From Candidatus Thiodiazotropha sp. (ex Myrtea sp. 'scaly one' KF741663) (lineage in GTDB: Bacteria; Pseudomonadota; Gammaproteobacteria; Chromatiales; Chromatiaceae): a stretch of DNA of 64,000 nucleotides. The position numbers and the translations under genes are program-made. The stretch is taken from positions 372,001 to 436,000 of the forward strand of contig JAHXIQ010000002.1 of assembly GCA_025655555.1 (NCBI GenBank). Direction: 5' to 3'. Positions 3,446-29,804 of this stretch are shown here, piece by piece; position 1 is the first letter of the stretch; every line of letters starts with the position of its first letter. Below the pieces are notes generated by a model, which saw nothing but the letters and a program-made list of their open reading frames with translations, was not told where the DNA came from and searched no databases.

Positions 3446-3460
3446 ATCTATTCTCTAAAC

Positions 3461-5838: not shown

Positions 5839-5855
5839 TAACTAAAGACCTGAAA

Positions 5856-6803: not shown

Positions 6804-6897
6804 CTAATTATGTGAAAAACATGATTGTTACAGATAAATGCGCCTATTACCTAAATTCATATTATACAATCTAAGCATGAACCTTTAAGTTGTTTTG

Positions 6898-7920: not shown

Positions 7921-8125
7921 AGAGTTGTCTCCTAAAAGGGGCTGATTACTGGCGTGACAGAGATAAATGAAGGTTAGTTGTTCGTTGCGTTGTTTACTGA
8001 TCCAAAGCTTTACATATTATTGCGCTATTTTGGTATTTTGAAACATAAAGTTCGTTAAAGGATTTGTATGAGAAACGTGAAGTATCTCATTAAGGTGGAT
8101 GTACTATTGAATAATTGCATGTCAG

Positions 8126-9655: not shown

Positions 9656-9731
9656 CTTTCAATTATCATGAATAAGACAAGATGGAATAATTTTCATATC
9701 TGAAGTAATCGTAAGATATTTATCATTAAAT

Positions 9732-10751: not shown

Positions 10752-11725
10752 TCAAAAATCAATCTCACAATATGCTCCATTTCAAACTTACCATAACGAT
10801 GATCGATAGGAATTGGCAACAGTCTTTCTACCATCATATTGCCCCAGTTTGGATCAAGGCGTTCGATGGCATCACTCCAATAAATAGGTAAAAATATCCT
10901 TTTGCTTATTAAGTGCTCTCTAAGTTTTGTATTGTTAGTTAAATAGGGATAACACAATGGTGATTGATGTTTGAAATTGTCCAAACTAAACAAATTAGTA
11001 TCTTTCAAATGTTCATGTAAAAAAAGAAAATTATTATTTCGTTTTTTCCTATTACGATCATAATCTATTGTCCTAAGCAGTCTTTCAGTTAGCTTAGACA
11101 TTTTCAGTGGAGAACAAATCTCTAGCGACGTCTCAGACGTCTGATAGTCACTGTAACCAACTTCAGGCTCCTCACTCAGGCGTTTAAGTAAGTGTAACAT
11201 TCGTCCTATGGAATTCTCGTCATGTTCATCAGGAAGAGTAATAGAAGAGCCTGTAAATAGGAGTCCACCATCAGGTACCCCAAAGAATTTCCTTGGAGAA
11301 TAAATCGTAGCTAATGCTTCTTTAATTGGAGGAGAAAAGTAGGCCTGAGAATAATCTAATATAACCTGACAAGCTGGGAATATTGTGAGAATTCGCTTGA
11401 CATTTCTCTCACAGATACCAAAGTAATTCACGTAAAGAATCCATTCATTTTCTTTAGGATTGAGGTTACTTTCTATATTTAAACCTTCGTCCAGGTCATA
11501 CCATCCATACTCGATACCCTCTTGCTTTAAAGGCAGCAACATTGCGTTGCAAATATACTTAGGTACCCATACTTTTTTTGGTCTTTGTGATCTTAGAATA
11601 GCGCAAAAAGCAGCTCTGGCGGATTGATATCGATATGCAGTCCTATGATAAGTAACATCAAAATAAGGAAGATCAAGCTCAAAGTAACCGCCTATTGGGA
11701 TGAGCGAAGAATCAGAATTAATCAA
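10742..11725 (-). CDS. Divergent DegT/DnrJ-type PLP-dependent enzyme
   Basis: A 327-aa protein with a weak but readable PLP-aminotransferase pattern. RYQSARAAFCAIL corresponds to the cofactor phosphate-binding segment. VILDYSQAYF carries the Asp that contacts the pyridine nitrogen. YSPRKFFGVPDGGLLF stands where DegT/AHBA-synthase enzymes have SFHxxKxxxxGEGG, and its Lys (near 143) is the likely Schiff-base residue. It is shorter than the usual 360-390 aa. It overlaps the WbqC gene by 8 bases and the sulfotransferase by 10. It could be an aminotransferase for an unusual keto-sugar or other small molecule; the substrate is not known. Confidence 0.7.
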   Translation of the reverse strand: MINSDSSLIPIGGYFELDLPYFDVTYHRTAYRYQSARAAFCAILRSQRPKKVWVPKYICNAMLLPLKQEGIEYGWYDLDEGLNIESNLNPKENEWILYVNYFGICERNVKRILTIFPACQVILDYSQAYFSPPIKEALATIYSPRKFFGVPDGGLLFTGSSITLPDEHDENSIGRMLHLLKRLSEEPEVGYSDYQTSETSLEICSPLKMSKLTERLLRTIDYDRNRKKRNNNFLFLHEHLKDTNLFSLDNFKHQSPLCYPYLTNNTKLREHLISKRIFLPIYWSDAIERLDPNWGNMMVERLLPIPIDHRYGKFEMEHIVRLIFECT

Positions 11726-12407
11726 GATCGAAACTCTTCAGCAATCTCGAACATTGCTCTTGATCGTTGAACATCAGAACATCAATGATGGAAAGGTTGG
11801 GCTCAAATAGGCCACCAAATTGTGGGTACTCAATGTCCTTTGAAGCAATAAAAGAAAGCTGGACACCCTGATTAGAAAAAGCCAATTTATCATAAAGGCT
11901 TCGTCCTCCTGAGGCATTGATGTAGTGGCTTCCACCTAATTCTGTGCATATAGACAGAACCTTATTTTGGCCATAGAGTTTTGAATCCTTCTTAAGGTCA
12001 GAAGATATATACCACTTGGGTGATAAACCTAAATAATTGCATATCCTTCTGAGGCCGAAATCAATAAATTTTGATAAATTATCTTCCTCATAAAGCAGGA
12101 TTTCTTCAATTATTGGGTACACATAAGAAAAAAAAGTTGCTTTGGAATAGCTCTGTTGGATAGTCTTTAATAATTTAATTCTATTAGAACCAAGCTTAAT
12201 CTGATTAATCAATAAATTTGGACTGGCACCCTGTAGTTGAAGTGTAATTCGACTTCTTTTTCCCTGAGAAAGAATAAAGTTTCGATTAATCCAACCACCT
12301 TTTATGAAATTCACATCGTCGTATACAACAAAAGTATCCACAGCTTGAATCACTTGAAAATATCCAATATAAGGGAAAAAATACGGCTGCATTATTGCAA
12401 GCTTCAT
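11718..12407 (-). CDS. WbqC family protein
   Basis: A 229-aa protein beginning MKLAIMQPYFFPYIGYFQ, with YDDVNFIKGGWINRN and YINASGGRSLYD, the conserved blocks of the WbqC-like family. The family is found in O-antigen loci next to DesI/VioA-type aminotransferases and is thought to act on the amino group of the resulting sugar; its chemistry is not settled. It overlaps the aminotransferase gene by 4 bases (ATGA) and the next PLP-like gene by 8, so the three were probably inherited as a unit that makes an N-modified 4-amino-4,6-dideoxyhexose. Confidence 0.88.
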   Translation of the reverse strand: MKLAIMQPYFFPYIGYFQVIQAVDTFVVYDDVNFIKGGWINRNFILSQGKRSRITLQLQGASPNLLINQIKLGSNRIKLLKTIQQSYSKATFFSYVYPIIEEILLYEEDNLSKFIDFGLRRICNYLGLSPKWYISSDLKKDSKLYGQNKVLSICTELGGSHYINASGGRSLYDKLAFSNQGVQLSFIASKDIEYPQFGGLFEPNLSIIDVLMFNDQEQCSRLLKSFDLD

Positions 12408-13579
12408 TGCTTTATTACCAATAGCGCTCGAATTACCTGTGTAATTGTTCTAACTGCCTCCACATCTATCGTCGTCCCTGTCGGCAGCACAATAACTCGA
12501 TCTGCCACTTTCATGGTATTTAACAACATCAGGTCAGCTTGGGGATATAGTTCGCTATATGGTTTCATGTTATGGCAACCTGGCCAGAAGTATTTTCTCG
12601 CTAAAATATTTTCAGCATGTAGTGCTTTAATTATCAGATCCCGGGATACCGGGGATCCATCGCTGACCTCCATCACCACATATTGATAATTGTTACTTTC
12701 GGCTTCCTGATAGTTCAGCAGACTGATACCAGGCAGGCCAGATAACATTTCGTGATAGACCTGATAATTGCGCTGGTTAACTTCAACTACATTATCGATG
12801 GCATCCAAGTTAACCATGCCCATTGCTGCAGCAATTTCTGACATCTTGCCATTAGTGCCCGGGTGAATCACTTTATCCATTCCCGAGAACCCAAAGTTAC
12901 GCATCAAGCGCATAGTTTCAGCAAGCTCGTCATTGTTGGTAAGGATTGCACCCCCCTCGAAGGTATTGAAGAATTTGGTGGCATGAAAACTAAGTACCTC
13001 ACAGGCCCCAAAGCCCCCGATCATCCGGCCCTTATATGAACAACCAAAAGCATGGGCAGCATCAAACATCAGCTTGAGATCATGCTCGTCGGCAATAGTC
13101 TGTAGTGCTTTAATCGGCGCTGGGCGTCCCCAGAGATGGACGCCGATAATGCCGGTGGTATTTGGTGTGATCATGGAGCGCACGGCTTCGGGGTCGAGGC
13201 TATGGGTGGCAGGATTGATATCAGCAAAAACCGGCGTAATGGCCTGCCAATGAAGAGCATGTGCGGTGGCTATAAAGGTATATGAAGGGATGATCACCTC
13301 TCCCTCAAGCCCCAATGATCGAATAGCTATCTCCAATGCTATTGTCCCGTTACACATGGCTATACAGTGCTTGACGTCATGGTGATCGGCTATCCTGCGC
13401 TCGAAAGCTTGCACCACCGGACCATTATTGCTTAGCCAGCGACGATCAAAGATTTCCTCGGTGTATTTGAAAAATAAATCCCGGCTGCCGATGTTTGGGC
13501 GGCCAACATGCAATGGCTCTTCAAATGCCGGAGTTGCTCCGTTAATGGCGAGATCTTGCGGTGTTCGGATAGATTTCAT
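12404..13579 (-). CDS. dTDP-4-keto-6-deoxyglucose 4-aminotransferase (DesI/VioA-type)
   Basis: A DegT/DnrJ/EryC1/StrS aminotransferase of 391 aa. It shows RWLSNNGPVVQAFE, CIAMCNGTIALEIAIR (phosphate cup), VHLWGRP, MFDAAHAFG with the ring-nitrogen Asp, and SFHATKFFNTFEGGAI with the Schiff-base Lys near 199. The opening LHVGRPNIG and the HLWGRP block are those of the DesI/VioA branch, which aminates C-4 of dTDP-4-keto-6-deoxy-D-glucose using glutamate. The substrate would come from RmlA/RmlB on the opposite strand. It is the first gene of the minus-strand arm. Confidence 0.88.
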   Translation of the reverse strand: MKSIRTPQDLAINGATPAFEEPLHVGRPNIGSRDLFFKYTEEIFDRRWLSNNGPVVQAFERRIADHHDVKHCIAMCNGTIALEIAIRSLGLEGEVIIPSYTFIATAHALHWQAITPVFADINPATHSLDPEAVRSMITPNTTGIIGVHLWGRPAPIKALQTIADEHDLKLMFDAAHAFGCSYKGRMIGGFGACEVLSFHATKFFNTFEGGAILTNNDELAETMRLMRNFGFSGMDKVIHPGTNGKMSEIAAAMGMVNLDAIDNVVEVNQRNYQVYHEMLSGLPGISLLNYQEAESNNYQYVVMEVSDGSPVSRDLIIKALHAENILARKYFWPGCHNMKPYSELYPQADLMLLNTMKVADRVIVLPTGTTIDVEAVRTITQVIRALLVIKQ

Positions 13580-14328: not shown

Positions 14329-15411
14329 TTGAAGCCGCTCAATATTTTAGTTACCGGAGGAGCCGGTTTTATCGGTTCCGCTGTAATTAGGCACCTAATT
14401 TTAGAGACAAATCATAGGGTTGCGAATGTAGACAAGCTGACCTATGCGGGTAATCTCGAGTCACTCAATGGTGTTTCTGGGAATGAGCGCTATACATTTT
14501 GCCAAACTGACATAATCGATCAGGCGGCCATTGAATCAATTTTTCGCCAGTTCAGGCCGGATATCGTGATGCATCTGGCGGCAGAATCCCATGTGGATCG
14601 CTCTATCACAGGCCCTGCTGACTTCATCCAGACGAACATTGTGGGCACCTATGTTCTACTGGAGACGGCCAGAAAGTATTGGCTGGGCCTGGATGAACAG
14701 AGAAAGGGCGCCTTCAGGTTCCACCATATCTCAACGGACGAGGTCTATGGCAGTCTGGGTCCGGAGGGATTATTTACTGAAGAATCCAACTACGACCCCA
14801 GCTCTCCGTACTCATCCAGCAAGGCATCATCGGACCACCTTGTCCGGGCATGGCACAGGACATACGGACTGCCGATAATTGTGACCAACTGCTCGAACAA
14901 CTACGGGCCCTACCAGTTTCCGGAAAAATTGATCCCCCTCATTATCTTAAATGCCCTCGAAGGCAAGCCGCTGCCGCTTTACGGCAAAGGTGACCAGATT
15001 CGTGACTGGCTTCATGTCGAGGACCATGCCCGCGCACTCTATAAGGTGGTGACCGAAGGGGCACCAGGTGAAACCTACAATATTGGTGGCCATAACGAGA
15101 AGACGAATATGCAGGTTGTGTTGACCCTGTGTGGCATTCTCGATGAACTGCGTCCAGACCATCCGAAAGGAATAAACCGATATGACCAGTTGATTACCTA
15201 TGTTGCAGATAGACCTGGCCATGATCAGCGGTATGCCATCGATTCCAGTAAGATCAAGTGGGATCTGGACTGGGTGCCGGAGGAAACCTTTGTGTCTGGC
15301 ATCAGGAAAACCGTCGATTGGTACCTGTCTAACGGCGAATGGTGCAGAAATGTGCTGGATGGTAGTTACCAGCGTGAGCGATTGGGTCTGGTCACGGAGG
15401 CTGCACCATGA
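14329..15411 (+). CDS. rmlB: dTDP-glucose 4,6-dehydratase
   Basis: A 360-aa extended SDR with the NAD loop [10 protein letters not shown] (residues 10-19), [22 protein letters not shown] and the YSSSK YxxxK pair near 164. The dehydratase signature around [15 protein letters not shown] is intact. It converts dTDP-glucose to dTDP-4-keto-6-deoxyglucose, the branch point for L-rhamnose and for the 3- and 4-amino sugars inferred elsewhere in the locus. The start is TTG at 14329 with an AAAAGG ribosome site just upstream. It overlaps rmlA by 4 bases and leads the plus-strand arm. Confidence 0.96.
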
Positions 15412-16283
15412 AAGGGATAATACTCGCAGGAGGTAGTGGTACCAGGCTTTATCCCATTACACAGTCCATCTCGAAGCAGCTGCTGCCAGTATACGACAAG
15501 CCCATGATCTACTATCCTTTGTCAACGCTCATGCTGGCGGGCATAAGAGATATCTTAGTTATTTCGACACCACAGGACACGCCAAGATTTGAGCAGCTAT
15601 TCGGGACAGGAGAGCAGTGGGGTTTGAACCTTTCTTATGCAGTTCAGCCATCACCCGATGGGCTAGCACAGGCTTTTATAATCGGAAAACAGTTCATTGC
15701 CAATGATCCATGTGCCCTGATTTTAGGCGATAACATCTTCTATGGGCATAGCTTTGAAGAGATGGTTTGTAAGGCGGCATCAAAATCTGTTGGTGGAACA
15801 GTGTTTGCGTACCGTGTTCAGGATCCCGAGCGATATGGAGTTGTTGAATTCGATGCTGAAGGAAAGGCCATTAGCGTAGAAGAGAAACCGGAAGCGCCTA
15901 AATCTAATTTTGCCGTTACGGGTTTGTATTTCTACGACAATGATGTGGTGAGTGTTACTGAATCCATTAAGCCGTCTGCGAGAGGGGAGTTAGAAATAAC
16001 GACAGTAAATCAAACCTATCTTGATGCTGGGAAGCTAAATGTCAACGTGATGGGACGTGGTTTTGCTTGGTTAGATACAGGAACTCACGATTCACTTCTG
16101 CAGGCGGCGCATTTTGTAGAGGTTCTTGAGCGACGTCAGGGGTTGAAAATGAGTTGTCCGGAAGAGATCGCATGGAGAAAAGGCTATATTGATGACGTTC
16201 AATTGGAAACCTTAGCATTGCCGTTGATAAAGAATGGTTATGGTAAATATCTAATGAATATTCTGAAGAGTGGGTATGCTTGA
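15408..16283 (+). CDS. rmlA: Glucose-1-phosphate thymidylyltransferase
   Basis: A 291-aa nucleotidyltransferase. The signature [11 protein letters not shown] is at residues 8-18 and [16 protein letters not shown] follows. LGDNIFYGH carries the metal-binding Asp, and [20 protein letters not shown] is also conserved. It makes dTDP-glucose from glucose-1-phosphate and dTTP and is normally feedback-inhibited by dTDP-rhamnose. The ATGA overlap with rmlB shows translational coupling. The length is standard for the long RmlA form. Confidence 0.96.
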
Positions 16284-16828
16284 TGAATGTTGTAGGGTCA
16301 CCAATATCCGATGTTTTGTTATTGGAGCCGGAGGTTTTTGGAGATGATCGTGGTTTTTTCATGGAGAGCTTCAATCAACTTAAATTTAATAAAGCAGTGG
16401 GAAGGCAGGTTAGTTTTGTTCAGGATAATCATTCTCGATCATCAAATAACGTATTGAGAGGTCTTCATTATCAAATAAAACAAACTCAAGGAAAGCTTAT
16501 AAGAGTATTAAGAGGTTCGATATTTGACGTAGTCGTTGATCTAAGAAAAAGTTCCAGTTCATTTGGACAGTGGTTTGGAACGGAGTTAAGTGAAGATAAC
16601 AAGAGAGAAATCTGGGTTCCAGAAGGCTTTGCTCATGGCTTCCTAGCGCTTTCTGATTTCGCAGACATTTTGTATAAAACAACTGATTATTATTCGCCAA
16701 AGCATGAAAGATGTATACGTTGGGACGATTTAAATATCGGTATCGATTGGCCCATTGAGGACAAGCCATTGTTGTCGGAAGTCGATAAAAACGGTTTATC
16801 ATGGGAAGATGCTGAGATGTTTTCGTGA
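16283..16828 (+). CDS. rmlC: dTDP-4-dehydrorhamnose 3,5-epimerase
   Basis: A cupin-fold enzyme of 181 aa with the expected blocks: EPEVFGDDRGFFMES, VQDNHSRSSNNVLRGLHYQ (with the catalytic His), GSIFDVVVDLRKSS and WVPEGFAHGFLALSD. It inverts C-3 and C-5 of dTDP-4-keto-6-deoxyglucose. I use the ATG at 16283, which shares a base with the rmlA stop (TGATG); a TTG one codon earlier is possible. The four rml genes are contiguous in the order B-A-C-D. Confidence 0.95.
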   Translation: MNVVGSPISDVLLLEPEVFGDDRGFFMESFNQLKFNKAVGRQVSFVQDNHSRSSNNVLRGLHYQIKQTQGKLIRVLRGSIFDVVVDLRKSSSSFGQWFGTELSEDNKREIWVPEGFAHGFLALSDFADILYKTTDYYSPKHERCIRWDDLNIGIDWPIEDKPLLSEVDKNGLSWEDAEMFS

Positions 16829-17727
16829 AGATATTATTGTTTGGCTCTAATGGTCAATTGGGGTGGGAGCTTGCTAGGAGTCTGCAAGCTCTGGGTAAAG
16901 TATTTTCTTTAAACAGACAAAGTTGTGATCTTTCAAAACCTGAATTAATTCCTGGAATAATCGATTCTGTCAAGCCAGATGCCATTATTAATGCGGGAGC
17001 GTATACGGCAGTCGACAAGGCCGAAGATGAGGAGGAGCTGGCAACGACAATCAATGGGATTTCTGTTGGAGTGATGGCAGAAGAGGCAAAAAAAAATAAT
17101 ATATTTTTACTTCATTATTCCACGGATTATGTTTTTGATGGGAAGAAGGCAGAACCATACACCGAGGAAGACATTCCAAATCCCATCAATGCATATGGCA
17201 GAAGTAAGCTTGCGGGTGAATTGGCCATCAAACAAGTAGAATGTGATTACCATATTTTACGCACTACTTGGGTTTATTCGTGCCGGGGCAACAATTTTTT
17301 AAAAACCATTTTACGTCTGTCAAAAGAAGGAGATGAGGTCGATATAGTCAATGATGCATATGGAGCTCCTACATTTGCTAGAAATCTGGCCGAAGTATCA
17401 ACACTAATGCTTGCGAAGCGTATTTGGCAGCATTCAGAGGGAATACTGGAGGCACCTTCAGGAGTGTACAACGCAACCGATACCGGGGAAACAACGTGGT
17501 TTGGATTTGCAGAAAGTATACTTACGGCAGCAAAAGAAAAAGAAATTCTTAAACTAAAGTCTGCATTTTCAATTAAGCCCATTTTGTCTCAAGAGTGCAC
17601 GCTCGCTGCCAAGCGGCCCAAAAACTCACTCCTGAATGGAGATAAGCTTCTACGTGATTATGGAATTAGATTGCCTGTTTGGCAAAATAGTCTGGGTCTT
17701 TGTTTAGATGAATTGTGTTTGTACTAA
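16825..17727 (+). CDS. rmlD: dTDP-4-dehydrorhamnose reductase
   Basis: A 300-aa reductase SDR with the N-terminal loop GSNGQLG, NAGAYTAVDKAEDE, the HYSTDYVFDG segment and YGRSK as YxxxK near 128. It completes dTDP-L-rhamnose with NAD(P)H. The start is GTG at 16825, overlapping the rmlC stop by 4 bases (GTGA). From here on the base composition becomes clearly more AT-rich than in rmlB. Confidence 0.95.
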   Translation: MKILLFGSNGQLGWELARSLQALGKVFSLNRQSCDLSKPELIPGIIDSVKPDAIINAGAYTAVDKAEDEEELATTINGISVGVMAEEAKKNNIFLLHYSTDYVFDGKKAEPYTEEDIPNPINAYGRSKLAGELAIKQVECDYHILRTTWVYSCRGNNFLKTILRLSKEGDEVDIVNDAYGAPTFARNLAEVSTLMLAKRIWQHSEGILEAPSGVYNATDTGETTWFGFAESILTAAKEKEILKLKSAFSIKPILSQECTLAAKRPKNSLLNGDKLLRDYGIRLPVWQNSLGLCLDELCLY

Positions 17728-18248: not shown

Positions 18249-19025
18249 GTGAATGCCTATAATTCTTTTATATCTGCGTTAGCATCATACGAGATTTGGT
18301 TATATCTTGCTTGGCAGGATATAAGGCTAAGGTATCGCCTTTCTAAAATAGGCCCATTTTGGATAACTCTGAGCATGGCGGTATTCTGCCTGTCACTAGG
18401 CGTTATTTATAGCGAGATATTTAATGCAAAAACTGAGGAATATCTCCCATATGTCTCAATTGGAATTGTACTGTGGAACTTTATTTCAGGATCACTTAAT
18501 GAATTTCCCAATGCATATGTTGATAATTCAGTATATTTGAAGGAGATAAAAATCAATCCATTGATAATTCTGTTAAGAGTGCTTGCAAGACACGCAATAA
18601 TATTTTTCCATAATTTTTTGATTGTTTTTGTTATATACGCGTATTTTGGTATCAATCCAGGCTTGGTTGTATTATTGGCGTTACCCGCTTTGATACTGGT
18701 TGTCATCAATCTTTTTTTTATTGGGGTTGTTTTGAGTATTTTAGGTGCGAGGTTCAGAGATATTAGCCAGATGTCACAGAGTGTAGTCCAGCTATTTTTC
18801 TTTGTTACACCCATAATATGGCATCAAAGATTGGTTTCTGAAGATAGCTTGATATTAGTTTTAAATCCGTTTTCTTATTTTATAGATATATTGAGATCAC
18901 CGTTATTAGGGGAGTTGCCGAAAATTGAGTCCTGGTTGGTAGTTATAACATTGCTTTTGTTTAATGCTATATTTGCAAAATTGGTATTTCAATCGAGGGC
19001 CGGCAGGATTACTTTTTGGGTTTGA
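18249..19025 (+). CDS. wzm: ABC-2 type polysaccharide exporter, permease
   Basis: A 258-aa integral membrane protein with about six helices. The N-terminal YEIWLYLAWQDIRLRYRLSKIGPFWITL is the hallmark opening of Wzm/KpsM/TagG permeases, and a conserved RFRDISQMSQ segment lies before the last helices. It forms the inner-membrane channel for a finished, lipid-linked glycan and pairs with the ATPase encoded two bases downstream. The GTG start follows directly after CCA without a strong ribosome site. Confidence 0.92.
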   Translation: MNAYNSFISALASYEIWLYLAWQDIRLRYRLSKIGPFWITLSMAVFCLSLGVIYSEIFNAKTEEYLPYVSIGIVLWNFISGSLNEFPNAYVDNSVYLKEIKINPLIILLRVLARHAIIFFHNFLIVFVIYAYFGINPGLVVLLALPALILVVINLFFIGVVLSILGARFRDISQMSQSVVQLFFFVTPIIWHQRLVSEDSLILVLNPFSYFIDILRSPLLGELPKIESWLVVITLLLFNAIFAKLVFQSRAGRITFWV

Positions 19026-19027
19026 TT

Positions 19028-19768
19028 ATGAAGCGAGTTGACCTTAATAACATATGTTTAAATTATCCCCTGGTCGGTATGGCTGGTAGGTCACTGAAAA
19101 ATAGGGTATTGAGTGCGGCAACAGGAGGGTTTATCACTCCTGGTGATATGCCAGAAGTTTGTGCTTTACAAAATATAAGTTTTTCGTTGAATGATGGAGA
19201 TAGGTTGGGTTTAGTAGGACATAATGGTGCAGGAAAATCTACCCTACTTAAGATTTTGGCAGGAATATATCAGCCCACTTCGGGTAATATTGTAATTAGT
19301 AACAATGTAGTATCGACGTTGAATCTATCCATAGGTATTGAGCCAGAAGCAACAGGTGTTGAGAACATTATTAGCAGAGGTCTCTTGTTGGGCATGAAGA
19401 GAGACGAAATAAATAAAAAAATGCCGGAAATAATTGACTTTACCGAACTAGGCAAATTTATTGATATGCCGGTAAGGATATATTCGTCTGGTATGATGAC
19501 AAGACTCATTTTTGCAACAGTTAGTTCGATGGATGCAGATATTTTGCTTATGGATGAAGTGATTGGAACAGGTGATGCGTCTTTTCTGGCAAAAGCTAGT
19601 AAGCGTCTCAATGAGTTTATAGAGAGGAGTAAAATTCTCGTCTTGGCATCTCACAATGAGGAAACAATTAGGAATTTTTGCAATAAGGCATTGTTATTGG
19701 ACCGTGGTAATTTGAAATACTTTGGCGATGTCAATGAAGTATTCACTATTTATAAAGATTTTAAATGA
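19028..19768 (+). CDS. wzt: ABC-2 type polysaccharide exporter, ATPase (short form)
   Basis: An ABC ATPase of 246 aa with Walker A GHNGAGKST, signature YSSGMMTRL (the SSGM variant usual in this family) and Walker B ILLMDEVIGTGD. It starts at the ATG two bases after the wzm stop; a TTG start 12 bases earlier is less likely. It ends right after the nucleotide-binding domain. The C-terminal carbohydrate-recognition domain found in the roughly 430-aa Wzt proteins is missing, so export should not depend on recognition of a capped non-reducing end. It overlaps the ATP-grasp gene by 4 bases. Confidence 0.92.
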   Translation: MKRVDLNNICLNYPLVGMAGRSLKNRVLSAATGGFITPGDMPEVCALQNISFSLNDGDRLGLVGHNGAGKSTLLKILAGIYQPTSGNIVISNNVVSTLNLSIGIEPEATGVENIISRGLLLGMKRDEINKKMPEIIDFTELGKFIDMPVRIYSSGMMTRLIFATVSSMDADILLMDEVIGTGDASFLAKASKRLNEFIERSKILVLASHNEETIRNFCNKALLLDRGNLKYFGDVNEVFTIYKDFK

Positions 19769-20946
19769 AGAATGTACTGCTTGTTGGTAGTAGCTTTAGT
19801 GCTGCGCCGCTTTTTTTTAATTTAAAAAAAAGGGGGTTTAAGGTAAGTGTTGTTGGTAATAGCAAAAGTGATCCGTGCCATCAATATTCAGATGAGTCAT
19901 GTTATTTTGATTACTCTAAAGAGAGTAATTTACTCGATTTAGTAAGAGACAAAAAATTCGATTTCATTGTTCCTGCGTGTAATGACTACTCATATATGTC
20001 ATGTGTAAGTGTAGCAGAGGAGTTAGGATATCCTGGATTTGACAATATAGACACTGCTGTAAAGCTTCATGTTAAAGATAGCTTCAGGAGATTATCTGAA
20101 GATGGTTTGTTTAATGCGCCTAAACAAATCAATTTTGAAAAAGACATAAAATACACAGTTCAAAATTGTAAGTTTCCATTGCTTGTCAAACCGGTTGACA
20201 GCTTTAGTGGTATTGGTGTTGTTAAGGTTTACCAGTCAGAGAAGCTCCAAGCTGCAATTGACCAAGCGCGTTTGGCTTCTAGAATAGGAGAAGTTGTTAT
20301 AGAGGAGTTTATTGATGGCAGCCTGCACAGCTATTCAGTTTTTATTCGTGGAAATAAAATAGTAAGTGAATTCGTTGTAGATGAATACTGTACTGTATAT
20401 CCTTATCAAGTGAACTGTTCAAATTGCCCTTCTATCTTACAAAAAAGCATTATTGAAAAAGTAAGAATCAAGATTTCAAGCTTAATCGAAAGCCTTGAGT
20501 TGGTTGATGGGTTGCTTCACACTCAGTTTATGACAGATGGTAAGGATGTCTGGATTGTTGAATGTATGAGGCGATGCCCAGGGGATTTATATGGAGAGTT
20601 AATAAATAGAGCTACAGGATACAATTATACGGATATGTACTTACGCCCATTTATAAATTTGCCTATAGAAAGTTATAAGGCGGACAAAGAAGTTAATTAT
20701 TCTGGTAGGCACACGATATCACTTTTAGAAGAGACAAAGTATTTTTCCATTAAATACAAGGTTCCATCAAAACGAATAGACTTCATGCCATTGAAGAATA
20801 GTGGTGAGTATGTTGGAAAAGCACCTTTTGACAAAATCGGCATACTATTTATCGATTATGAGAATCAGGAATCAATGAAGGCTATTACTCCTAACCTTGC
20901 TGAATGCGTGACTACTAAATCTTATGAGGTTCAAGAGTGTGAATAG
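19765..20946 (+). CDS. ATP-grasp domain ligase
   Basis: A 393-aa protein. Residues 1-100 form a pre-ATP-grasp domain (LLVGSSFSAAPLFFNLKKRG). Residues about 105-300 are an ATP-grasp fold with PLLVKPVDSFSGIGVVKV (ATP-binding Lys and flexible loop), VVIEEFIDG and VWIVECMRRCPGD with the metal-binding Glu. Such ligases join a carboxylate to an amine or thiol through an acyl-phosphate. It is coupled by 4-base overlap to wzt and is followed by an oxidoreductase and a methyltransferase, so it likely modifies the glycan or builds a decorating acid. The substrate is unknown. Confidence 0.85.
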   Translation: MKNVLLVGSSFSAAPLFFNLKKRGFKVSVVGNSKSDPCHQYSDESCYFDYSKESNLLDLVRDKKFDFIVPACNDYSYMSCVSVAEELGYPGFDNIDTAVKLHVKDSFRRLSEDGLFNAPKQINFEKDIKYTVQNCKFPLLVKPVDSFSGIGVVKVYQSEKLQAAIDQARLASRIGEVVIEEFIDGSLHSYSVFIRGNKIVSEFVVDEYCTVYPYQVNCSNCPSILQKSIIEKVRIKISSLIESLELVDGLLHTQFMTDGKDVWIVECMRRCPGDLYGELINRATGYNYTDMYLRPFINLPIESYKADKEVNYSGRHTISLLEETKYFSIKYKVPSKRIDFMPLKNSGEYVGKAPFDKIGILFIDYENQESMKAITPNLAECVTTKSYEVQECE

Positions 20947-22093
20947 TAATAGTTATTTAAGAACTGAGAAATTATTTAAAGTCGGGTTTTTAGGGGGTGG
21001 TTATGACTCTGCGGTTGGGAGAGCGCACAAAATTGCTGTTGAAATGGATGATTTGTTCGAGGTCGTTACAGGTTGTTTTAGCCTAAATAATGAAAGCAAT
21101 ATAAAAACAGCAACTCATTATCACATTGAGAGTGAAAGAACATATTTAAACATCGATAATTTAATTAAGTCAGAAAATAGTAAAATAGATGCTTTAGTTA
21201 TTTTAACACCAACTGATCAGCATAAAGATCAAGTTATTAGAGCAGTGTCAGCAGGAATACCAGTGATATGTGAGAAAGCTCTTGTGGCATCTAGTGAAGA
21301 TGCACTTGCTGTTAAAAACCAATTAGATAAATGTTCTGGTTTTTTGGCGGTAACGTATAATTATACAGGTTATCCTATGTTGAGAGAGCTGAAGTATATT
21401 ATCGAAACAGGTCGTCTTGGTGATGTTCAGCAAATTAATATTGAAATGCCACAAGAGGGTTTTTCTAGGTTGGACAAAACAGGTAAGCCAATTGTCCCAC
21501 AAAATTGGCGTTTAAAAGATGAATACGTGCCTACTGTTTCGCTTGACCTAGGTATTCACATTCATAATGTTGTTTCTTTTTTAGTCAGGAAACGACCATT
21601 GAGAGTAGCATCGTTAAGTGGATCGTATGGAAACTATAACCAGATTACTGACAGTATTAATTGCATCGCTGAATATGAAGATGGCATCAGTGCTAACATT
21701 TGGTATGGAAAGACTGCAATTGGCTATAGAAATGGTTTAAGAGTTAGAGTGTTCGGAAGTAAGGGAGGCGCTGAATGGTTACAGACAGACCCTGAGATTC
21801 TTTATTTTTCAGATTGTTTTGGCAATAGATATACAGTTGACCGTGCAAGCCCGGATATAGAAATTGCCAATATGGAAAGATATACACGTTTTAAAGCTGG
21901 GCACCCCGCAGGTTTTGTAGAAGCGTTTGCTAATTACTATGTTGATATTGCCGATCAGCTAAGTAATTATTTGAGTGGGAAAAAACCAAGTAACTCGTAT
22001 GTTTTTGGTATAGATGAGGCATTGAATGGAATAGTGTTTCTTGAGGCTATTTCAGATTCGGTTAAAACAATGGATTGGGTCGAAGTTCAATGA
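20924..22093 (+). CDS. Gfo/Idh/MocA family oxidoreductase
   Basis: A 389-aa protein with an N-terminal NAD(P) fold (FKVGFLGGGYDSAVGRAH), ILTPTDQHKDQV, and VICEKALVAS at the site of the usual EKP motif, where Pro is replaced by Ala. A C-terminal catalytic half with SLDLGIHIHN supplies the His normally used in catalysis. Members oxidise or reduce sugar hydroxyls, for example to 3-keto-sugars. The ATG at 20924 overlaps the ATP-grasp gene by 23 bases. A GTG at 20939 inside the overlap would give a shorter protein and is an alternative start. It overlaps the FkbM gene by 4 bases. Confidence 0.87.
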   Translation: MRFKSVNSNSYLRTEKLFKVGFLGGGYDSAVGRAHKIAVEMDDLFEVVTGCFSLNNESNIKTATHYHIESERTYLNIDNLIKSENSKIDALVILTPTDQHKDQVIRAVSAGIPVICEKALVASSEDALAVKNQLDKCSGFLAVTYNYTGYPMLRELKYIIETGRLGDVQQINIEMPQEGFSRLDKTGKPIVPQNWRLKDEYVPTVSLDLGIHIHNVVSFLVRKRPLRVASLSGSYGNYNQITDSINCIAEYEDGISANIWYGKTAIGYRNGLRVRVFGSKGGAEWLQTDPEILYFSDCFGNRYTVDRASPDIEIANMERYTRFKAGHPAGFVEAFANYYVDIADQLSNYLSGKKPSNSYVFGIDEALNGIVFLEAISDSVKTMDWVEVQ

Positions 22094-23184
22094 GTTCATT
22101 ATTATTAAAAAATGGAAACCCAGAAGAAAAGAAGAATAAGGCCCTAGACTTTTGTAGAAAATTTCTAGAAAGAAATAGATACAAAAAATATGTAATGGGG
22201 AGAAACGTATATTCTGAGAACGTTATTTCTAAACTAAACATTGATGGGGTTATAGATGACTTCACGACAGAGAAGCTTTTTCAAGGGTGCCCTATACTAA
22301 AGACAAAGGATTTATCTAAAAATGCATTGGTTATAAATGCTGTTGGGGGAAAGACGCTTACAGCGTCTTCTGCTTTAAATAAATTAGACATTCAAAATCT
22401 AGATTATTTTTCCTTCAGAAAATATTCAGGCATTGATCTTCCTTCAGTAATATTTAACAAGGGTTTTTGTAAAGAATTTAAAAAACATGAAAGAGAATAC
22501 CATTGGATCTATGAGAAACTCGAAGATGATGAGTCAAAAATAATATTTAAAAAGTTAGTTAGTTTTAGATATGACAACGATATAGAGCATTTGAAGGGTT
22601 TTGAGAGCAGAGAGAAAGAGCAGTATTTTGAAGAATTATTAAAGTTGAATAAAGCGAATGAAACCTACATTGATGTTGGGGGGTATGACGGATTTAATGT
22701 CAAACAATTTGTTGATAGGTGTCCTGATTATCAAGGCATATATGTATTAGAACCAGATAGAGATAATTATAAGGTTTGTTGTCAGAATTTAAAATATTTC
22801 AGAGATGTATCTATATTAAATAAAGGTCTGTCTGACGAAAAGGCTAAATTAAGATTTACCCAACAAGGTTCTGGATCAGCCGTTTCCTCTAGTGGAGAGA
22901 TCGTGATAGAAGTCGATAGGTTGGATGATATTTTAGATGGTAGTGTAAAACCTACGTTTATCAAGATGGATATCGAGGGCGCTGAAATGGCAGCTATAGA
23001 GGGTTCAAAAAGGATTATTTTTGAATGTCATCCTCGGTTAGCGATCTGTGTCTATCATAAACCAGGGGATTTTTGGCGTTTGCCAGAAGCAATCTTAAAA
23101 ATCAGAAGTGACTATAGAATATACCTAAGGCATTATACTGAAACAATTTATGAAACAGTTATGTTCTTTATGCCTTCGAGTTAG
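22090..23184 (+). CDS. FkbM family methyltransferase with N-terminal Rossmann-like domain
   Basis: A 364-aa protein from the ATG at 22090 (ATGA overlap with the previous stop). The first 150 residues resemble the small Rossmann domain found with sugar methyltransferases (VMGRNVYSENVISKL, GVIDDFTTEKLFQGCPIL). The C-terminal part is an S-adenosylmethionine fold: TYIDVGGYDGFNVKQF (motif I, near 190), VLEPDRDNY and IKMDIEGAEMAAIEG, the FkbM hallmark. It probably O-methylates a sugar or the compound made by the ATP-grasp and Gfo/Idh partners. It may also act as a chain-ending methylase, but the short Wzt argues against a cap-dependent export step. Confidence 0.88.
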   Translation: MSSLLLKNGNPEEKKNKALDFCRKFLERNRYKKYVMGRNVYSENVISKLNIDGVIDDFTTEKLFQGCPILKTKDLSKNALVINAVGGKTLTASSALNKLDIQNLDYFSFRKYSGIDLPSVIFNKGFCKEFKKHEREYHWIYEKLEDDESKIIFKKLVSFRYDNDIEHLKGFESREKEQYFEELLKLNKANETYIDVGGYDGFNVKQFVDRCPDYQGIYVLEPDRDNYKVCCQNLKYFRDVSILNKGLSDEKAKLRFTQQGSGSAVSSSGEIVIEVDRLDDILDGSVKPTFIKMDIEGAEMAAIEGSKRIIFECHPRLAICVYHKPGDFWRLPEAILKIRSDYRIYLRHYTETIYETVMFFMPSS

Positions 23185-23230: not shown

Positions 23231-23647
23231 ATGACAATATCAGATGTAAAATATATAGAATTGCCAAGAATTAATGATAACAGAGGTAATTTATCATTTA
23301 TAGAATCTTCGCGCCATATTCCGTTTGAAATAAAGAGAGTCTACTACCTATACGATGTACCTGGTGGAGCTTCTCGTGCAGGACACGGACATAAACGATT
23401 GCATCAGTTGATGATTGCAATGTCAGGAAGTTTTGATGTGACTTTAGACGATGGAATTCGAAAAAATAAATACCATCTAAATAGATCTTATAATGGGTTA
23501 TATATACCTCCCAAGATGTGGAGAGATTTGAATAATTTTTCATCTGGTGCAGTATGTCTCGTGTTAGTATCAGAGTTTTATGACGAAGACGATTATATAA
23601 GAGATTATCCAACATTTTTAAATTATGTCCGTGGTACTTCTTCATGA
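23231..23647 (+). CDS. dTDP-4-keto-6-deoxyglucose 3,4-ketoisomerase (FdtA/QdtA-like)
   Basis: A small cupin of 138 aa. It opens [15 protein letters not shown], has [11 protein letters not shown] with the active-site histidines, and [23 protein letters not shown] near the end. This pattern is that of FdtA/QdtA/WxcM-type ketoisomerases, which shift the keto group from C-4 to C-3 of dTDP-4-keto-6-deoxyglucose. Whether the product has galacto (FdtA) or gluco (QdtA) configuration cannot be read from the sequence by eye. It overlaps the aminotransferase gene by 4 bases, forming a clear two-step unit. Confidence 0.9.
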
Positions 23648-24738
23648 AAATACCATTCCTAGATTTGGCGTCACAAACCGAAATTGTAAAAGAGGAATTA
23701 ATAGAAGCGTGTACACGAGTAATAAAGTCAGGCTGGTTTATCTTGGGCCAAGAATTAGAAGCCTTTGAGGCAGAATTTTCAGAGTTCAATAGTGTTAAGT
23801 ACTGTATTGGCGTAGGTAACGGCCTAGATGCGATAAAATTACTGTTGGCAGCCTATGGTGTCGGTCCAGGTGATGAAGTAATAGTTCCTTCAAACACCTT
23901 TATTGCCACGTGGTTTGCAGTCTCTCATGTGGGCGCTATTCCTGTTCCTGTAGATCCAGATCGCAGAACATACAATATAGACAGTTCTAAAATTGAAGAG
24001 CGTATTACATGTAAAACGAAAGCGATTATTGCTGTACATTTATATGGCCAGCCATCTGATATGGACAGGATCAATGCATTAGCTAAAAAATACAATTTAA
24101 TAGTTATAGAAGATGCTGCTCAGGCTCAGGGTGCAAGATATAAGAATAAAATGATTTGTGGAATTTCAGATGCCGCTGCGACAAGTTTTTATCCAGGAAA
24201 AAACCTTGGTGGCCTTGGTGATGGTGGGGCGATTCTTACAAATCAAAAAGATATTGCTGAAAAAGTTCGCAAATTAAGAAACTACGGTTCTACTGAGAAG
24301 TATAGTCATGAATTGATTGGTTACAATTCACGACTAGATGAAATTCAGGCAGCATTTCTACGTATAAAGCTGAGCTATCTTACTGAATGGAATGAAGAAA
24401 GGAAGAATATCGCTTCGTTATATTCAAATAACATTAAACAACAATCGATACAGTTACCATATGTACCAGACTGGGCCGATCCAGTCTGGCATTTGTATGT
24501 CATACGAACAACAAAAAGAGATGACTTAGTAAACTATTTGCGAAAAAACGGAATTGAAACAATGATTCATTATCCTGTCCCGCCTCATAAACAAGACACA
24601 TACACAGGGCAGTATGAATGCGAACTAAACTTAACAGAAAATTTAGCAAATGAGATATTAAGTTTGCCGATTGGTCCAAATATTGATTCACAAAAGATAG
24701 GTTTAGTTATTGACACAATCAATAGGTATGTAGCGTAG
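23644..24738 (+). CDS. dTDP-3-amino-3,6-dideoxyhexose transaminase (FdtB/QdtB-like)
   Basis: A 364-aa DegT/DnrJ-type aminotransferase. [17 protein letters not shown] and [17 protein letters not shown] open it. [17 protein letters not shown] binds the PLP phosphate, [10 protein letters not shown] carries the ring-nitrogen Asp, and [17 protein letters not shown] has the Schiff-base Lys near 181. The pattern is that of FdtB/QdtB, which aminates C-3 to give dTDP-Fuc3N or dTDP-Qui3N. The N-acetyltransferase (FdtC/QdtC) that usually completes the trio is not present in this window. Confidence 0.9.
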
Positions 24739-27138: not shown

Positions 27139-28482
27139 ATGTTTAAAGAAATAGCAGAGAACAAGAATAATCCTTTAAGGATTATCTATAAAAAATATGC
27201 AAAAAGATTAGTAAAGAAAGCTAATCTTGAGCATAGAGTTGTACGCATTCTTTTTAAACTGATAAAAATCGAATCTAATTTAAAAAAGAAAAAAAAATAT
27301 GGGTTAATATCCTTGACTGATTACTGTGCTGGTAATAGCTGTAAATCCAAGAGAATATTTGAGGGAGAGAGAATACATATTCCAGAGTTGGTTTTCTATA
27401 AAGATAAGGCATATAAGCCTGATAGAACACCTTATTTTATTGTAACACCTGAAGTTTGTATTTATATAATTGATAATATCAATGTTTTGGCAAGAACAGA
27501 TTTTCTATTCAGTGATAATTATTTAATCCATCCAAATAATTTTGATCCACATATTGAGTTGTGTACACTTGAGCAGTTCGGACGAATAAAATACGACTAT
27601 TCATACAAGTATGCTTATGTTTTAGAGTCTATTCCATGCATAGAAATACCTAAGGCTGTGTCATTATTAGGTGGTGGCTCAGGTAATTATGCACACTTTA
27701 TTACTGAAGTTCTACCGAGGCTGATAATAATAGACTCACACGAGGAATATTCGGAGTTGCCAATAATTATTGACGGTTGGATAGGTGAGCCCATACAGAA
27801 TATTCTTAGGTTGTTTAACGTTAACAATAGAAAGATTATATATCTTGATGTTTGGAAAAAAGCGTATGTCGAAAATTTGATTTTAGTTTCTCTGCCAAGC
27901 ACCTCCCCGCAAGAATTTCGTGTTAATTATGACAATAAAAGTGACGTAAGCATATCGAAAGATGTGTATACGTTTAATAAAAATGCACTTAAAGCTGTGT
28001 CATTTTACTCCCAGAAATTATTTGGAAATATAAATACTCCATACAGTGGTGTAAAAAAAGTATATTTGACTCGTAAAGCAGTATTTAAGGAATCAATTCA
28101 GTATAATTTAAGGCACATTATCAATGAAGATGAAGTTATTGAAGTATTTAAGCGTTTCGATTTTGAAATAATTGATATAACTACATTATCCTTTCCTGAA
28201 CAATTTTCTCTTTTTAAAAATATTAAATTCGTAGCTGCACCTCTTGGTGCTGCTATTGCAAACATTATATTTTCTAAGGGCGAGATAAATATACTTGGAC
28301 TGGCAGCATATTATGATGGTGCAAACTATTCATATTTTACAAATATGGCTGAGAGTATGGGGCACAACATAAGATATGTTCTTGGATCCCAAGATACAAA
28401 GTCACACGAGAACCCGATGCATAGAAATTATAATATCAATACTACTTATCTTGAGTCTGCCTTGAATGAGTTATGTAATTAG
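27139..28482 (+). CDS. Glycosyltransferase family 61 protein, copy 1
   Basis: A 447-aa protein with the GT61 (DUF563) core: GGGSGNYAHFITEVLPRL near 175-192, KVYLTRKAVF, the EVIEVFKRFDFEIID segment and the nucleotide-site block VAAPLGAAIANIIFSKGE near 370. The family transfers xylose, GlcNAc or other sugars in both eukaryotic glycans and bacterial capsules. It is followed after 14 bases by a second GT61 gene, so the two are probably one transcriptional unit. The lysine-rich, AT-rich N-terminal 60 residues have no known domain. Confidence 0.82.
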   Translation: MFKEIAENKNNPLRIIYKKYAKRLVKKANLEHRVVRILFKLIKIESNLKKKKKYGLISLTDYCAGNSCKSKRIFEGERIHIPELVFYKDKAYKPDRTPYFIVTPEVCIYIIDNINVLARTDFLFSDNYLIHPNNFDPHIELCTLEQFGRIKYDYSYKYAYVLESIPCIEIPKAVSLLGGGSGNYAHFITEVLPRLIIIDSHEEYSELPIIIDGWIGEPIQNILRLFNVNNRKIIYLDVWKKAYVENLILVSLPSTSPQEFRVNYDNKSDVSISKDVYTFNKNALKAVSFYSQKLFGNINTPYSGVKKVYLTRKAVFKESIQYNLRHIINEDEVIEVFKRFDFEIIDITTLSFPEQFSLFKNIKFVAAPLGAAIANIIFSKGEINILGLAAYYDGANYSYFTNMAESMGHNIRYVLGSQDTKSHENPMHRNYNINTTYLESALNELCN

Positions 28483-28496
28483 ATTTCAGTGAAAAA

Positions 28497-29804
28497 ATGG
28501 CTGGTATCATTTTACATATATATAGGGGTTTTCTATCACGTTTTGTTGTATTTCGTGTAGCTAGGTATGCTTTTGTACTGCTAATGAGGTTATTGCGTCA
28601 CATTAAAAGCACATCAAATATATTTAACTCAGATTACAAAAGATACCAATTAGTCAAGTTTAAATCATTGTCTCTTGAGGAGTGTCTATTTAGTAAGGTT
28701 ATTTTGCGTTCAAGAGATTATAAAACTGACAGTCCTAAATTTACCAACAAAGTTAATTATAATCTAGATAATACAGATTCATCTTTTGATGTTTCAGCAG
28801 CTGAGATTTCCGTCAAGCTATTAAATAATGTGTCGATTTTAGGTGGTTCTTTCTTTGTGTTTCTTGATAAAAAAGTTGTGCTGCCAGAACAATGTGATTT
28901 CGATAAGGATACATATTCTGCGGAGTATCTTGGTCTTGTTACAATAAATCGAAAAAAAGGAGAAATGAAGTCAACTGCTGTTGAAAAATTAGATGAGTAC
29001 GACCTAGGAGTGTCTATGGTTGGTCAAAATGCATTTAACTACGCACATTGGATGACTGAGATTTTACCAAAGCTCTATATTCTAAATAAATACACAGCCT
29101 TTGACGATTATCCAGTATTTGTAGATGCTGATCTTCCAGATAATATGTATGAATCAATACATGTTCTGAATAAAACAAATAGGGATATTATAGCAGTTAA
29201 AAAATGGGAAAAGGTTAGAATCAGAAATGCTGTCATTATATCTCAACCTAGTTATGAGCCGTATATTCCTGATGGCATCATAATACGTAGAACCTCTGAT
29301 ACGGTGAACTCATTTTCTAAAGAAGTATTCAGGGAGTTTTCATCGCACATTCAAGAAGTATTTAGTTTAAATAATCGTAGCGAAGGCAAAGTGTATCTAA
29401 CCAGGAATAGCGGCAATAATAACCTCAGGCGCGTTGAGAATGAATCTGAGATTATTAATTATTTGCAATCGATAAACTTCATGATAATTAATGGGTCATC
29501 CCTTTCATTTAGTGAACAGGTAGAAGTTTGCGGGTCTGCTAGTATAATTGTCGCGCCTATTGGCGCGGCACTTGCCAATATGATCCTAGCAAAAAAAGAG
29601 TGTTTAGTTATTGCACTTGCACCATTTTATCAAGATGCTAAATATCATTATTATTCGAATTTAGCGCAAATTCTTGGACATAAATTATTCTATGTGTTAG
29701 GTCGTCAGGAGATTTCAGGTTACCATCTCATGCATCGAAGTTATAGTATAGACATGAAGGATCTAAAGAAAGTCATTAAGATGGCTATTGATTGTGAGTT
29801 GTGA
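28497..29804 (+). CDS. Glycosyltransferase family 61 protein, copy 2
   Basis: A 435-aa GT61 protein sharing the layout of its upstream neighbour. It has NYAHWMTEILPKLYIL near 180, KVYLTRNSGNNNLRRVENE, SLSFSEQVEVCGSASIIVAPIGAALANMILA near 340-370, and a C-terminal YYSNLAQILGHKLFYVLG echoed in copy 1 as YFTNMAESMGHNIRYVLG. The two are clearly homologous but well diverged, so they probably add different residues or act at successive positions. An amphipathic N-terminal stretch could attach to the membrane. Confidence 0.82.
   Translation: MAGIILHIYRGFLSRFVVFRVARYAFVLLMRLLRHIKSTSNIFNSDYKRYQLVKFKSLSLEECLFSKVILRSRDYKTDSPKFTNKVNYNLDNTDSSFDVSAAEISVKLLNNVSILGGSFFVFLDKKVVLPEQCDFDKDTYSAEYLGLVTINRKKGEMKSTAVEKLDEYDLGVSMVGQNAFNYAHWMTEILPKLYILNKYTAFDDYPVFVDADLPDNMYESIHVLNKTNRDIIAVKKWEKVRIRNAVIISQPSYEPYIPDGIIIRRTSDTVNSFSKEVFREFSSHIQEVFSLNNRSEGKVYLTRNSGNNNLRRVENESEIINYLQSINFMIINGSSLSFSEQVEVCGSASIIVAPIGAALANMILAKKECLVIALAPFYQDAKYHYYSNLAQILGHKLFYVLGRQEISGYHLMHRSYSIDMKDLKKVIKMAIDCEL

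Follow-up and report, generated by a model that had tools for sequence, protein, structure and literature searches.

A stretch of 64,000 nucleotides from Candidatus Thiodiazotropha sp. (ex Myrtea sp. 'scaly one' KF741663; assembly GCA_025655555.1, contig JAHXIQ010000002.1, positions 372,001 to 436,000), hereafter the window, carries three overlapping genes for an ATP-grasp ligase, a dehydrogenase of the Gfo/Idh/MocA family (Gfo/Idh) and an FkbM-family methyltransferase, set between the genes of an ATP-binding cassette (ABC) exporter and those of a 3-amino sugar pathway. The analysis confirmed that this trio is real and that its catalytic residues are intact. It is probably an N-acylation module for a dTDP-amino-dideoxyhexose, in which the ligase would join a free acid to the amine of the sugar in an ATP-dependent manner. 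The three genes are the following:

19765..20946, + strand: ATP-grasp ligase of 393 aa, proposed amino-sugar N-acyl ligase (Pfam Dala_Dala_lig_C 1.4e-9, ATP-grasp_4 7.8e-7)
20924..22093, + strand: Gfo/Idh/MocA dehydrogenase of 389 aa, proposed to prepare the acid (Pfam GFO_IDH_MocA_C3 9.4e-16, GFO_IDH_MocA 8.3e-14)
22075..23184, + strand: FkbM-family methyltransferase of 369 aa with an extra N-terminal part, proposed O-methyltransferase (Pfam Methyltransf_21 4.2e-12, residues 200-341)

As originally pointed out in a preliminary description of this DNA, the trio lies between wzt and the fdtA and fdtB genes, and the open reading frames, their overlaps and the Pfam matches bear this out. The ligase gene shares 4 bases with wzt and 23 with the Gfo/Idh gene, which in turn overlaps the FkbM gene by 19 bases; a gap of 46 bases follows before fdtA, whose own overlap with fdtB is of 4 bases. 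The FkbM frame may start at an internal ATG, and its overlap with the Gfo/Idh gene would then also be of 4 bases. The GC content of the trio is 35-36%, against about 55% from 32 kb onward in the window, which is consistent with horizontal acquisition. Six proteins submitted to PADLOC gave no match and thus no sign of a defence system.

The ligase exceeds the Pfam cutoffs for Dala_Dala_lig_C (38.2 bits, cutoff 24) and ATP-grasp_4 (29.3 bits, cutoff 27), and its closest solved relatives are a phosphoribosylglycinamide synthetase-like protein (4dim, 1.2e-29), CPSase and the L-amino acid ligase BL00235 (5.9e-18). Residues K142, E180, Q254, E266 and R270 are invariant in the 19 sequences of its own branch (clade A, described below), and the last three align with Q829, E841 and R845 of CPSase; by analogy with solved ATP-grasp families, we take these positions to be those of the ATP/metal site and of the catalytic Arg. 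None of the named ATP-grasp equivalogs (D-Ala-D-Ala ligase, PurT, PylC, LdmS and others) reached its curated NCBIfam cutoff among the matches listed (25 of 34), where the best was PRK09288 with 54.9 bits against a cutoff of 339. With BL00235 and other ATP-grasp carboxylate-amine ligases the protein shares the superfamily and the conserved metal-site and catalytic Arg positions; unlike them, it has amino-sugar genes as neighbours and falls in a clade apart, marked by RHT and RRxPGD motifs. Altogether, its sequence makes it a plausible carboxylate-amine ligase. It is single-copy in its genome, the sole further match being an 18%-identical stretch in a frame of 1,069 aa.

The two accompanying enzymes also keep their catalytic residues. 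The Gfo/Idh protein matches the structure 3v5n at 7.8e-73 (profile A2) and has both its N- and C-terminal domains; E117 and K118 of an EK motif and D208 and H212 of a DxxxH motif are invariant in 17 of 17 rows, and the residue following EK is not Ala in two of them. The FkbM protein scores above the cutoffs of Methyltransf_21 (46.9 bits, cutoff 22.7) and TIGR01444 (61.9 bits, cutoff 37.7), matches the solved 2py6 at 1.3e-23, and keeps D200, G202, E226 and D299 in all 13 sequences compared.

The genes that flank the trio on the same strand complete the picture of a pathway leading from sugar nucleotide to exported glycan:

14329..17727, + strand: rmlB, rmlA, rmlC and rmlD, supply of dTDP-4-keto-6-deoxyglucose (and rhamnose) (Pfam/NCBIfam)
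18249..19025, + strand: wzm, permease of an ABC-2 polysaccharide exporter (Pfam ABC2_membrane 6.2e-14; NCBIfam NF050109 221.5 bits, below the cutoff of 380)
19016..19768, + strand: wzt, exporter ATPase of 250 aa (Pfam ABC_tran 5.8e-22, residues 51-182; NF050108 269.7 bits, below the cutoff of 400)
23231..23647, + strand: fdtA, dTDP-4-keto-6-deoxyglucose 3,4-ketoisomerase (Pfam FdtA 5.4e-56)
23644..24738, + strand: fdtB, C-3 aminotransferase (DegT 2.2e-116; QdtB 3frk 418 bits)
27139..29804, + strand: two GT61 glycosyltransferases of the same locus (Pfam Glyco_transf_61 7.6e-20 and 2.6e-21)

RmlB was recognised as GDP_Man_Dehyd/Epimerase, RmlA as NTP_transferase, RmlC as dTDP_sugar_isom and RmlD by a score above cutoff (295.3 bits), so that RmlA/B, FdtA and a C-3 aminotransferase of the dTDP-3-amino-3,6-dideoxyhexose pathway are present in the window. 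C-3 amination is expected because the best solved relative of FdtB is QdtB. FdtA resembles 5tpu (4.6e-37), 2pa7 (2e-33) and QdtA (7.2e-29); since structures named FdtA and QdtA both match, the sugar could be either 3-amino-3,6-dideoxyglucose (Qui3N) or 3-amino-3,6-dideoxygalactose (Fuc3N). The known Fdt/Qdt pathway to dTDP-Fuc3NAc or dTDP-Qui3NAc likewise uses RmlA, RmlB, FdtA and a QdtB-like FdtB, but ends with a hexapeptide acetyltransferase, FdtC/QdtC, in whose place the window has the ATP-grasp gene. Neither the 17 genes predicted from rmlB to 31602 nor the 12 from 429 to 13579 gave a match to that acetyltransferase, a search in which two of the 29 genes (at 10742 and 26000) match no family and which left out the frame at 13686-14231. 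Other acyltransferase families had no Pfam or NCBIfam match in the same 17 genes (the gene at 26000 matching nothing), and acyl carrier protein (ACP), ketoacyl synthase and VioB-like acyltransferase had none among the window genes run, a genome-wide search not having been made.

From these data the following route can be proposed. RmlA and RmlB lead to dTDP-4-keto-6-deoxyglucose, FdtA would shift the keto group to C-3 and FdtB would aminate it, as in the known pathways. The ATP-grasp enzyme would then convert a free carboxylic acid into its acyl phosphate and couple this activated acid to the 3-amino group, replacing the CoA- or ACP-dependent acyltransferase of the known Qui3N, Fuc3N and viosamine pathways. 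The Gfo/Idh enzyme may prepare the acid: its substrate could be a small sugar or hydroxy compound that it oxidises, or an imine that it reduces to yield an amino acid. The FkbM enzyme may O-methylate the acid or the sugar; we advance each of these two roles tentatively, with clearly less confidence than that of the ligase. The acylated sugar would finally be built into a surface polysaccharide exported by Wzm/Wzt. As for the acid itself, candidates such as di-O-methylglyceric acid or an N-alkylated amino acid like that of Clostridium difficile were considered, and the genes single out none. The former occurs on a flagellin sugar of Campylobacter (PMC3958885), and acetyl-alanyl, hydroxybutyryl and oxopyrrolidine-carboxylic acyl groups are described on Qui3N and its 4-amino counterpart Qui4N in marine bacteria (PMC3210612).

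In order to place the trio in a wider context, relatives of the ligase were collected from several partly overlapping sets of genomes (loci and genomes are designated here by L and G numbers). A search with the single protein gave 5 matches at E<=1e-25 among 274 genomes of the class, the own genome counted. A six-sequence profile gave 7 at E<=1e-45 among 398 genomes of the phylum and 8 among 56 relatives (own counted in both), 2 at E<=1e-60 among 289 genomes of the class of G308 and 4 among 149 of the family of G559 (centre genome counted in both), and a single one, the centre itself, among 17 genomes of the genus of G049 and among 150 of the family of G411; these figures include members of clade B. 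The family is sparse: in the broad samples it reaches about 1-3% of genomes, and within the genus of the window it is found in 7 of 22 genomes, its own counted. A contig scan added four Rhizobium loci at 44% identity and plasmids two further ones, whereas E. coli genomes searched by blastn with the ligase gene of L036 gave no match. L008, L009/L032 and L012, near copies of the kept Rhizobium loci L007, L010 and L011, were left out of the tree and the counts, as was L002, a weak match (E 2.1e-6). The 24 remaining ligases fall into two branches, clade A with 19 members and clade B with 5 (support 100/100 for each). Clade A is made up of three Rhizobium records and 16 genomes, of which six belong to congeners of the organism of the window; the 17 of its genomes that were tested represent 11 genera. 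The ligases of the congeners group with that of L014, and the one of the window groups weakly with those of Rhizobium and G411 (88/95). The tree of the Gfo/Idh proteins had long branches and was not used.

In the neighbourhoods, FkbM and Gfo/Idh genes were counted only above 120 bits to the reference set and above 250 aa; gene names rest mostly on similarity to that set or on reading by eye, part of them checked with Pfam or NCBIfam. A gene for a dTDP-amino-dideoxyhexose aminotransferase stands in the fetched stretch of all 19 clade A loci; a wide occurrence of the trio without amino-sugar genes, which the preliminary description named as speaking against its proposal, is not seen in this sample. 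The partner is a DesI-type (4-amino) enzyme in 17 of the 19, 16 as full genes and one as a fragment at a contig end (L040), and an FdtB (3-amino) in three: the window and L034 of G411 have fdtA and fdtB with no DesI-type gene near the ligase, and L013 has both kinds. In 13 of the 17 the DesI gene either overlaps that of the ligase or is no more than 100 bases away, and it is 1.3-1.5 kb off in three Rhizobium loci and L050; overlaps of 85 and 121 bases (L043, L051) hinge on the start codons chosen by the script. Seven of the module DesI proteins score 252-328 bits with the DesI model, against a cutoff of 650, and so count as DesI-like by their best match without being certified members. In 18 of the 19 loci no more than one gene separates a Gfo/Idh gene from the ligase; the Gfo/Idh is of the same subfamily and adjacent in 16, one gene off in L014, and of a different kind in L035, where it overlaps the ligase by 4 bases. 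An FkbM gene is near the ligase in 13 of the 19, of a separate branch in L036 and L051. As the linkage of ATP-grasp and Gfo/Idh genes recurs in distant genera, the arrangement is more than chance.

Genome-wide searches covered 17 module genomes. Under a criterion of at least 43% identity to the L036 query and E<=1e-90, a module-type DesI occurs in 14 of them, always at the ligase (the copy of G679 is cut by a contig end), and the window has a 38% copy in another operon. Only 4 of the 17 have FdtA: its distance from the ligase is 2.3 kb in the window, 2.9 kb in G411 and 3.5 kb in G049, and in G614 it is on another contig; an RmlB homologue is present in all 17. The search for the same trio beside fdtA/fdtB in other genomes, proposed from the start, was answered by G411, which has no DesI-type gene in its whole genome (best 36%, 153.8 bits). 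The initial suggestion of a ligase acting on the amine of a Fuc3N/Qui3N-type sugar is thus supported as regards a plausible ligase with an aminotransferase gene at 19 of 19 loci, and a special tie to 3-amino sugars is not supported, given DesI in 17 of 19 loci and FdtA in 4 of 17 genomes.

Clade B shows a third kind of partner. A WecE-type transaminase for dTDP-Fuc4N, the 4-amino-4,6-dideoxygalactose derivative, scores above curated cutoffs in four of the five loci (L015, L016, L037, L044), L052 having no transaminase within 12 kb. Overall, 23 of the 24 loci have a dTDP-amino-dideoxyhexose transaminase in the fetched stretch, so the partner varies by ligase branch, yet is nearly always present. 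The FkbM protein of L044 is 42% identical to that of the window. An aldehyde dehydrogenase-type gene overlaps the ligase in L015 and is 26 bases away in L052 (the names being below equivalog cutoffs); both loci (L015 9594-13473, with WecE, and L052 411-4269) also hold a radical S-adenosylmethionine (SAM) gene, and these genes may represent a second set for acid making that goes with the ligase family. Altogether, the family appears to swap acceptors, mostly the 4-amino product of DesI, the 3-amino product of FdtB in the window and G411, and the Fuc4N of WecE in clade B. A broader proposal, which we hold as a conjecture below the confidence given to the trio itself, is that of a new ATP-grasp family joining free acids directly to the amine at C-4 (DesI, WecE) or C-3 (FdtB) of dTDP-amino-dideoxyhexoses, where a polyhydroxy or methoxy acid made by Gfo/Idh and O-methylated by FkbM would decorate flagellins and exported polysaccharides.

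ATP-grasp, Gfo/Idh and FkbM genes joined in this way were not found described in the open-licence literature, and to that extent the early remark that no known pathway has this exact set holds; it needs qualifying by a published functional analogue. In Clostridium difficile type B strains, rmlABCD and genes for an FdtB homologue, an ATP-grasp protein, an ornithine cyclodeaminase and a FemAB-like protein lie by fliC (CDR20291_0244-0247), and mutants of the ATP-grasp and cyclodeaminase genes make the core trisaccharide only, the terminal sugar moiety being lost (PMC5207246). What is lost is a Fuc3N that bears taurinyl-Ala-Gly as acyl group at N-3 (PMC5207245). Judged by the gene descriptions in the parts of these reports that treat the locus, the likeness lies in an ATP-grasp and a dehydrogenase-type gene beside an FdtB homologue; unlike the window, those parts describe no Gfo/Idh, no FkbM and no FdtA in the locus, and they describe a FemAB-like acyltransferase. 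Ornithine cyclodeaminase and FemAB-like proteins had no match among the window genes run, which have Gfo/Idh and FkbM instead. The precedent supports the link between ATP-grasp, FdtB and a sugar amide, but lowers the novelty. The trio is a real, recurrent module whose published functional analogue uses other accessory enzymes. Its type of chemistry can be predicted, and we regard it as a variant of the N-acylation of nucleotide-linked amino sugars, not as a system of a new kind.

Two other flagellin systems can be compared. In the sections that describe it, the viosamine island of Pseudomonas syringae (vioA, vioM, vioT, vioS, vioB, vioR, acp) also N-acylates and methylates a dTDP-4-amino sugar for a flagellin glycan, the acylation going through VioS, VioR, ACP and VioB and the methylation through VioM (PMC3927599); it differs in using a ketoacyl synthase, a reductase, an ACP and VioB for the acyl group, where the present loci have ATP-grasp and Gfo/Idh. 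By analogy, the DesI-type enzyme of the module would take the role of VioA. The sfmABCDE operon of Shewanella oneidensis ends with an ATP-grasp_4 gene, sfmE, whose loss shifts the flagellin mass, and is alike, by the descriptions given, in joining ATP-grasp_4 and methyltransferase genes in a flagellin-modification operon; unlike the trio, it has a NeuB-type synthase, a TPP enzyme and an acyl-ACP-reductase type gene for a putative nonulosonic acid glycan, with no aminotransferase or Gfo/Idh in the genes listed there (PMC3765264). The ATP-grasp gene of the Pantoea HiVir cluster (PMC9933511) and a gene-table entry (PMC2964297) were set aside, on the portions available, as having no bearing on the trio.

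Several observations weigh against the N-acylation module as proposed for the window. L033 has no Gfo/Idh gene in its fetched stretch, and six of the 19 loci have no FkbM above 120 bits (two weaker ones in L033), so that neither is essential to the ligase. With three related Rhizobium records and six congeners, the rows of clade A are not independent. The closest ATP-grasp proteins to that of the window, those of Rhizobium (44%), are paired with DesI; the window and L034 do not form a supported clade in the ligase tree, and do so for FkbM only (99/98). In L013 the trio sits beside DesI, with the ligase abutting, and the FdtB has a hexapeptide transferase nearby. The window itself has a second transaminase, of DesI type, at 6.2 kb from the ligase on the opposite strand, and for this reason the acceptor of its ligase is not certain. 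A model that AlphaFold built for the ligase on five sequences was unusable (pLDDT 45.7). Moreover, the C. difficile case is compatible with a ligase that acts on the sugar or one that only builds the acyl part, and in the sections concerned its authors prefer the latter, with the FemAB-like gene as candidate for the acylating enzyme and ATP-grasp for peptide making (PMC5207245).

Among the alternatives, the one that survives best, although we consider it unlikely, keeps the ligase alone on the amine and has Gfo/Idh oxidise or epimerise the ring of the dTDP-sugar and FkbM methylate the sugar, e.g., at 2-O. Gfo/Idh enzymes do commonly oxidise sugar hydroxyls. However, one and the same Gfo/Idh subfamily accompanies 3-amino and 4-amino pathways alike, which makes a single ring position less likely, and that place is taken by an aldehyde dehydrogenase-type gene in L015 and L052 and by the ornithine cyclodeaminase in the C. 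difficile locus. For the methyl group there is a precedent in the 2-O-methyl viosamine of P. syringae flagellin. The modified viosamine of that species bears a VioM-dependent methyl (PMC3927599).

For the window, the strongest alternative is that the trio acylates the product of the DesI-type gene present there, with fdtA/fdtB serving another sugar of the polymer. The genes concerned are:

12404..13579, - strand: separate DesI-type 4-aminotransferase of a divergent operon (TIGR04427 482.8 bits, cutoff 650; DesI 2po3 378.8 bits)
11718..12407, - strand: WbqC-like protein, immediately downstream (Pfam WbqC 4.4e-67)

In its favour, 17 of 19 clade A loci pair the ligase with DesI, and L013, which holds DesI as well as fdtA/fdtB, keeps its trio beside the former. 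But the DesI of the window is only 33-39% identical to the module enzymes, and G411, where the trio stands with fdtA/fdtB, lacks any DesI-type gene. We rate this explanation lower, as improbable, because the window DesI is of another kind, divergent and followed by the WbqC-like gene; these two genes suggest another acylated 4-amino sugar. They belong to a second, divergent glycan cluster (429-13579, - strand) with WecB, FnlA and RmlD-like enzymes, three glycosyltransferases, an SDR, a flippase-like protein, a Sulfotransfer_3 protein (9732-10751) and a protein of no family (10742-11725). Finally, broad ATP-grasp matches and the fact that O-antigens of ABC exporters can be methylation-capped would fit a ligase whose substrate lies elsewhere, e.g., an amino acid amide of a uronic acid in the polymer, with FkbM as chain cap and fdtA/fdtB incidental, a very improbable explanation set against the transaminase linkage in 23 of 24 loci, the presence of FkbM in flagellar loci too and a Wzt with no cap reader. 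Its 250 aa match only ABC_tran and, weakly, AAA_21 in Pfam, with no C-terminal carbohydrate-binding domain, and a cap read by Wzt was given low odds because nothing extends beyond the ATPase.

The N-acylation module is found in two settings. Flagellar genes accompany it in nine clade A loci (L033, L036, L039, L040, L042, L043, L049, L050, L051), four of them from congeners, with at least one flagellar gene confirmed by Pfam or NCBIfam in each; fliA adjoins the module in L036, L049, L050 and L051, and fliC does so as well in L036 and L049. Such a position beside fliA or fliC is that of the flagellin glycosylation islands of enterobacteria, for which DegT, FdtB and FkbM genes are listed and ATP-grasp and Gfo/Idh are not mentioned in the sections concerned (PMC4875605). 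A TPR/GT41 protein stands beside the module in the congener loci L038, L039, L041 and L043 (by Pfam in L039, by eye in the rest), and is likely a flagellin glycosyltransferase. The fliS-fliD-flaG-fliC region of the window's own genome (L056 2279-6280) has no glycosylation module, unlike those of the congeners. The second setting, that of polysaccharides, comprises the window, G411 (Wzm, Wzt and GT61 at 12-15 kb downstream of the trio) and G049 (rml genes, GT61); the GT61 genes outside the window were those of L013 and of L058 of G411.

Other genes were observed around the module. In L034 (13123-16554) the genes after the trio encode an iron-containing alcohol dehydrogenase, a radical SAM protein and a protein with no Pfam match, possible further acid-tailoring enzymes. 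A methyltransferase and a fatty-acid-desaturase-like gene stand beside the module in Rhizobium plasmid loci (L011, 10055-18770) and in congeners (L039, 5327-7023), the methyltransferase being Methyltransf_24 by Pfam in L039 and class I SAM by annotation in L011. In the window, a fragment of an IS30-family transposase (24896-25366; 44.3 bits, cutoff 80) directly 3' of fdtB is a sign of rearrangement of the locus, and a 321-aa protein (26000-26965) with no Pfam match begins with what resembles a sulfotransferase P-loop.

Many acids occur in amide linkage on the amino sugars of bacteria, and in many cases the enzyme that links them is not known. If the N-acylation module acts as proposed, a family of free-acid ligases beside three kinds of transaminase would explain one set of such sugar amides and would bear on the unexplained role of ATP-grasp in type B flagellin of C. 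difficile. It would also provide an enzyme for making N-acylated sugar nucleotides, and structures of flagellin and polysaccharide glycans would become predictable from genomes.

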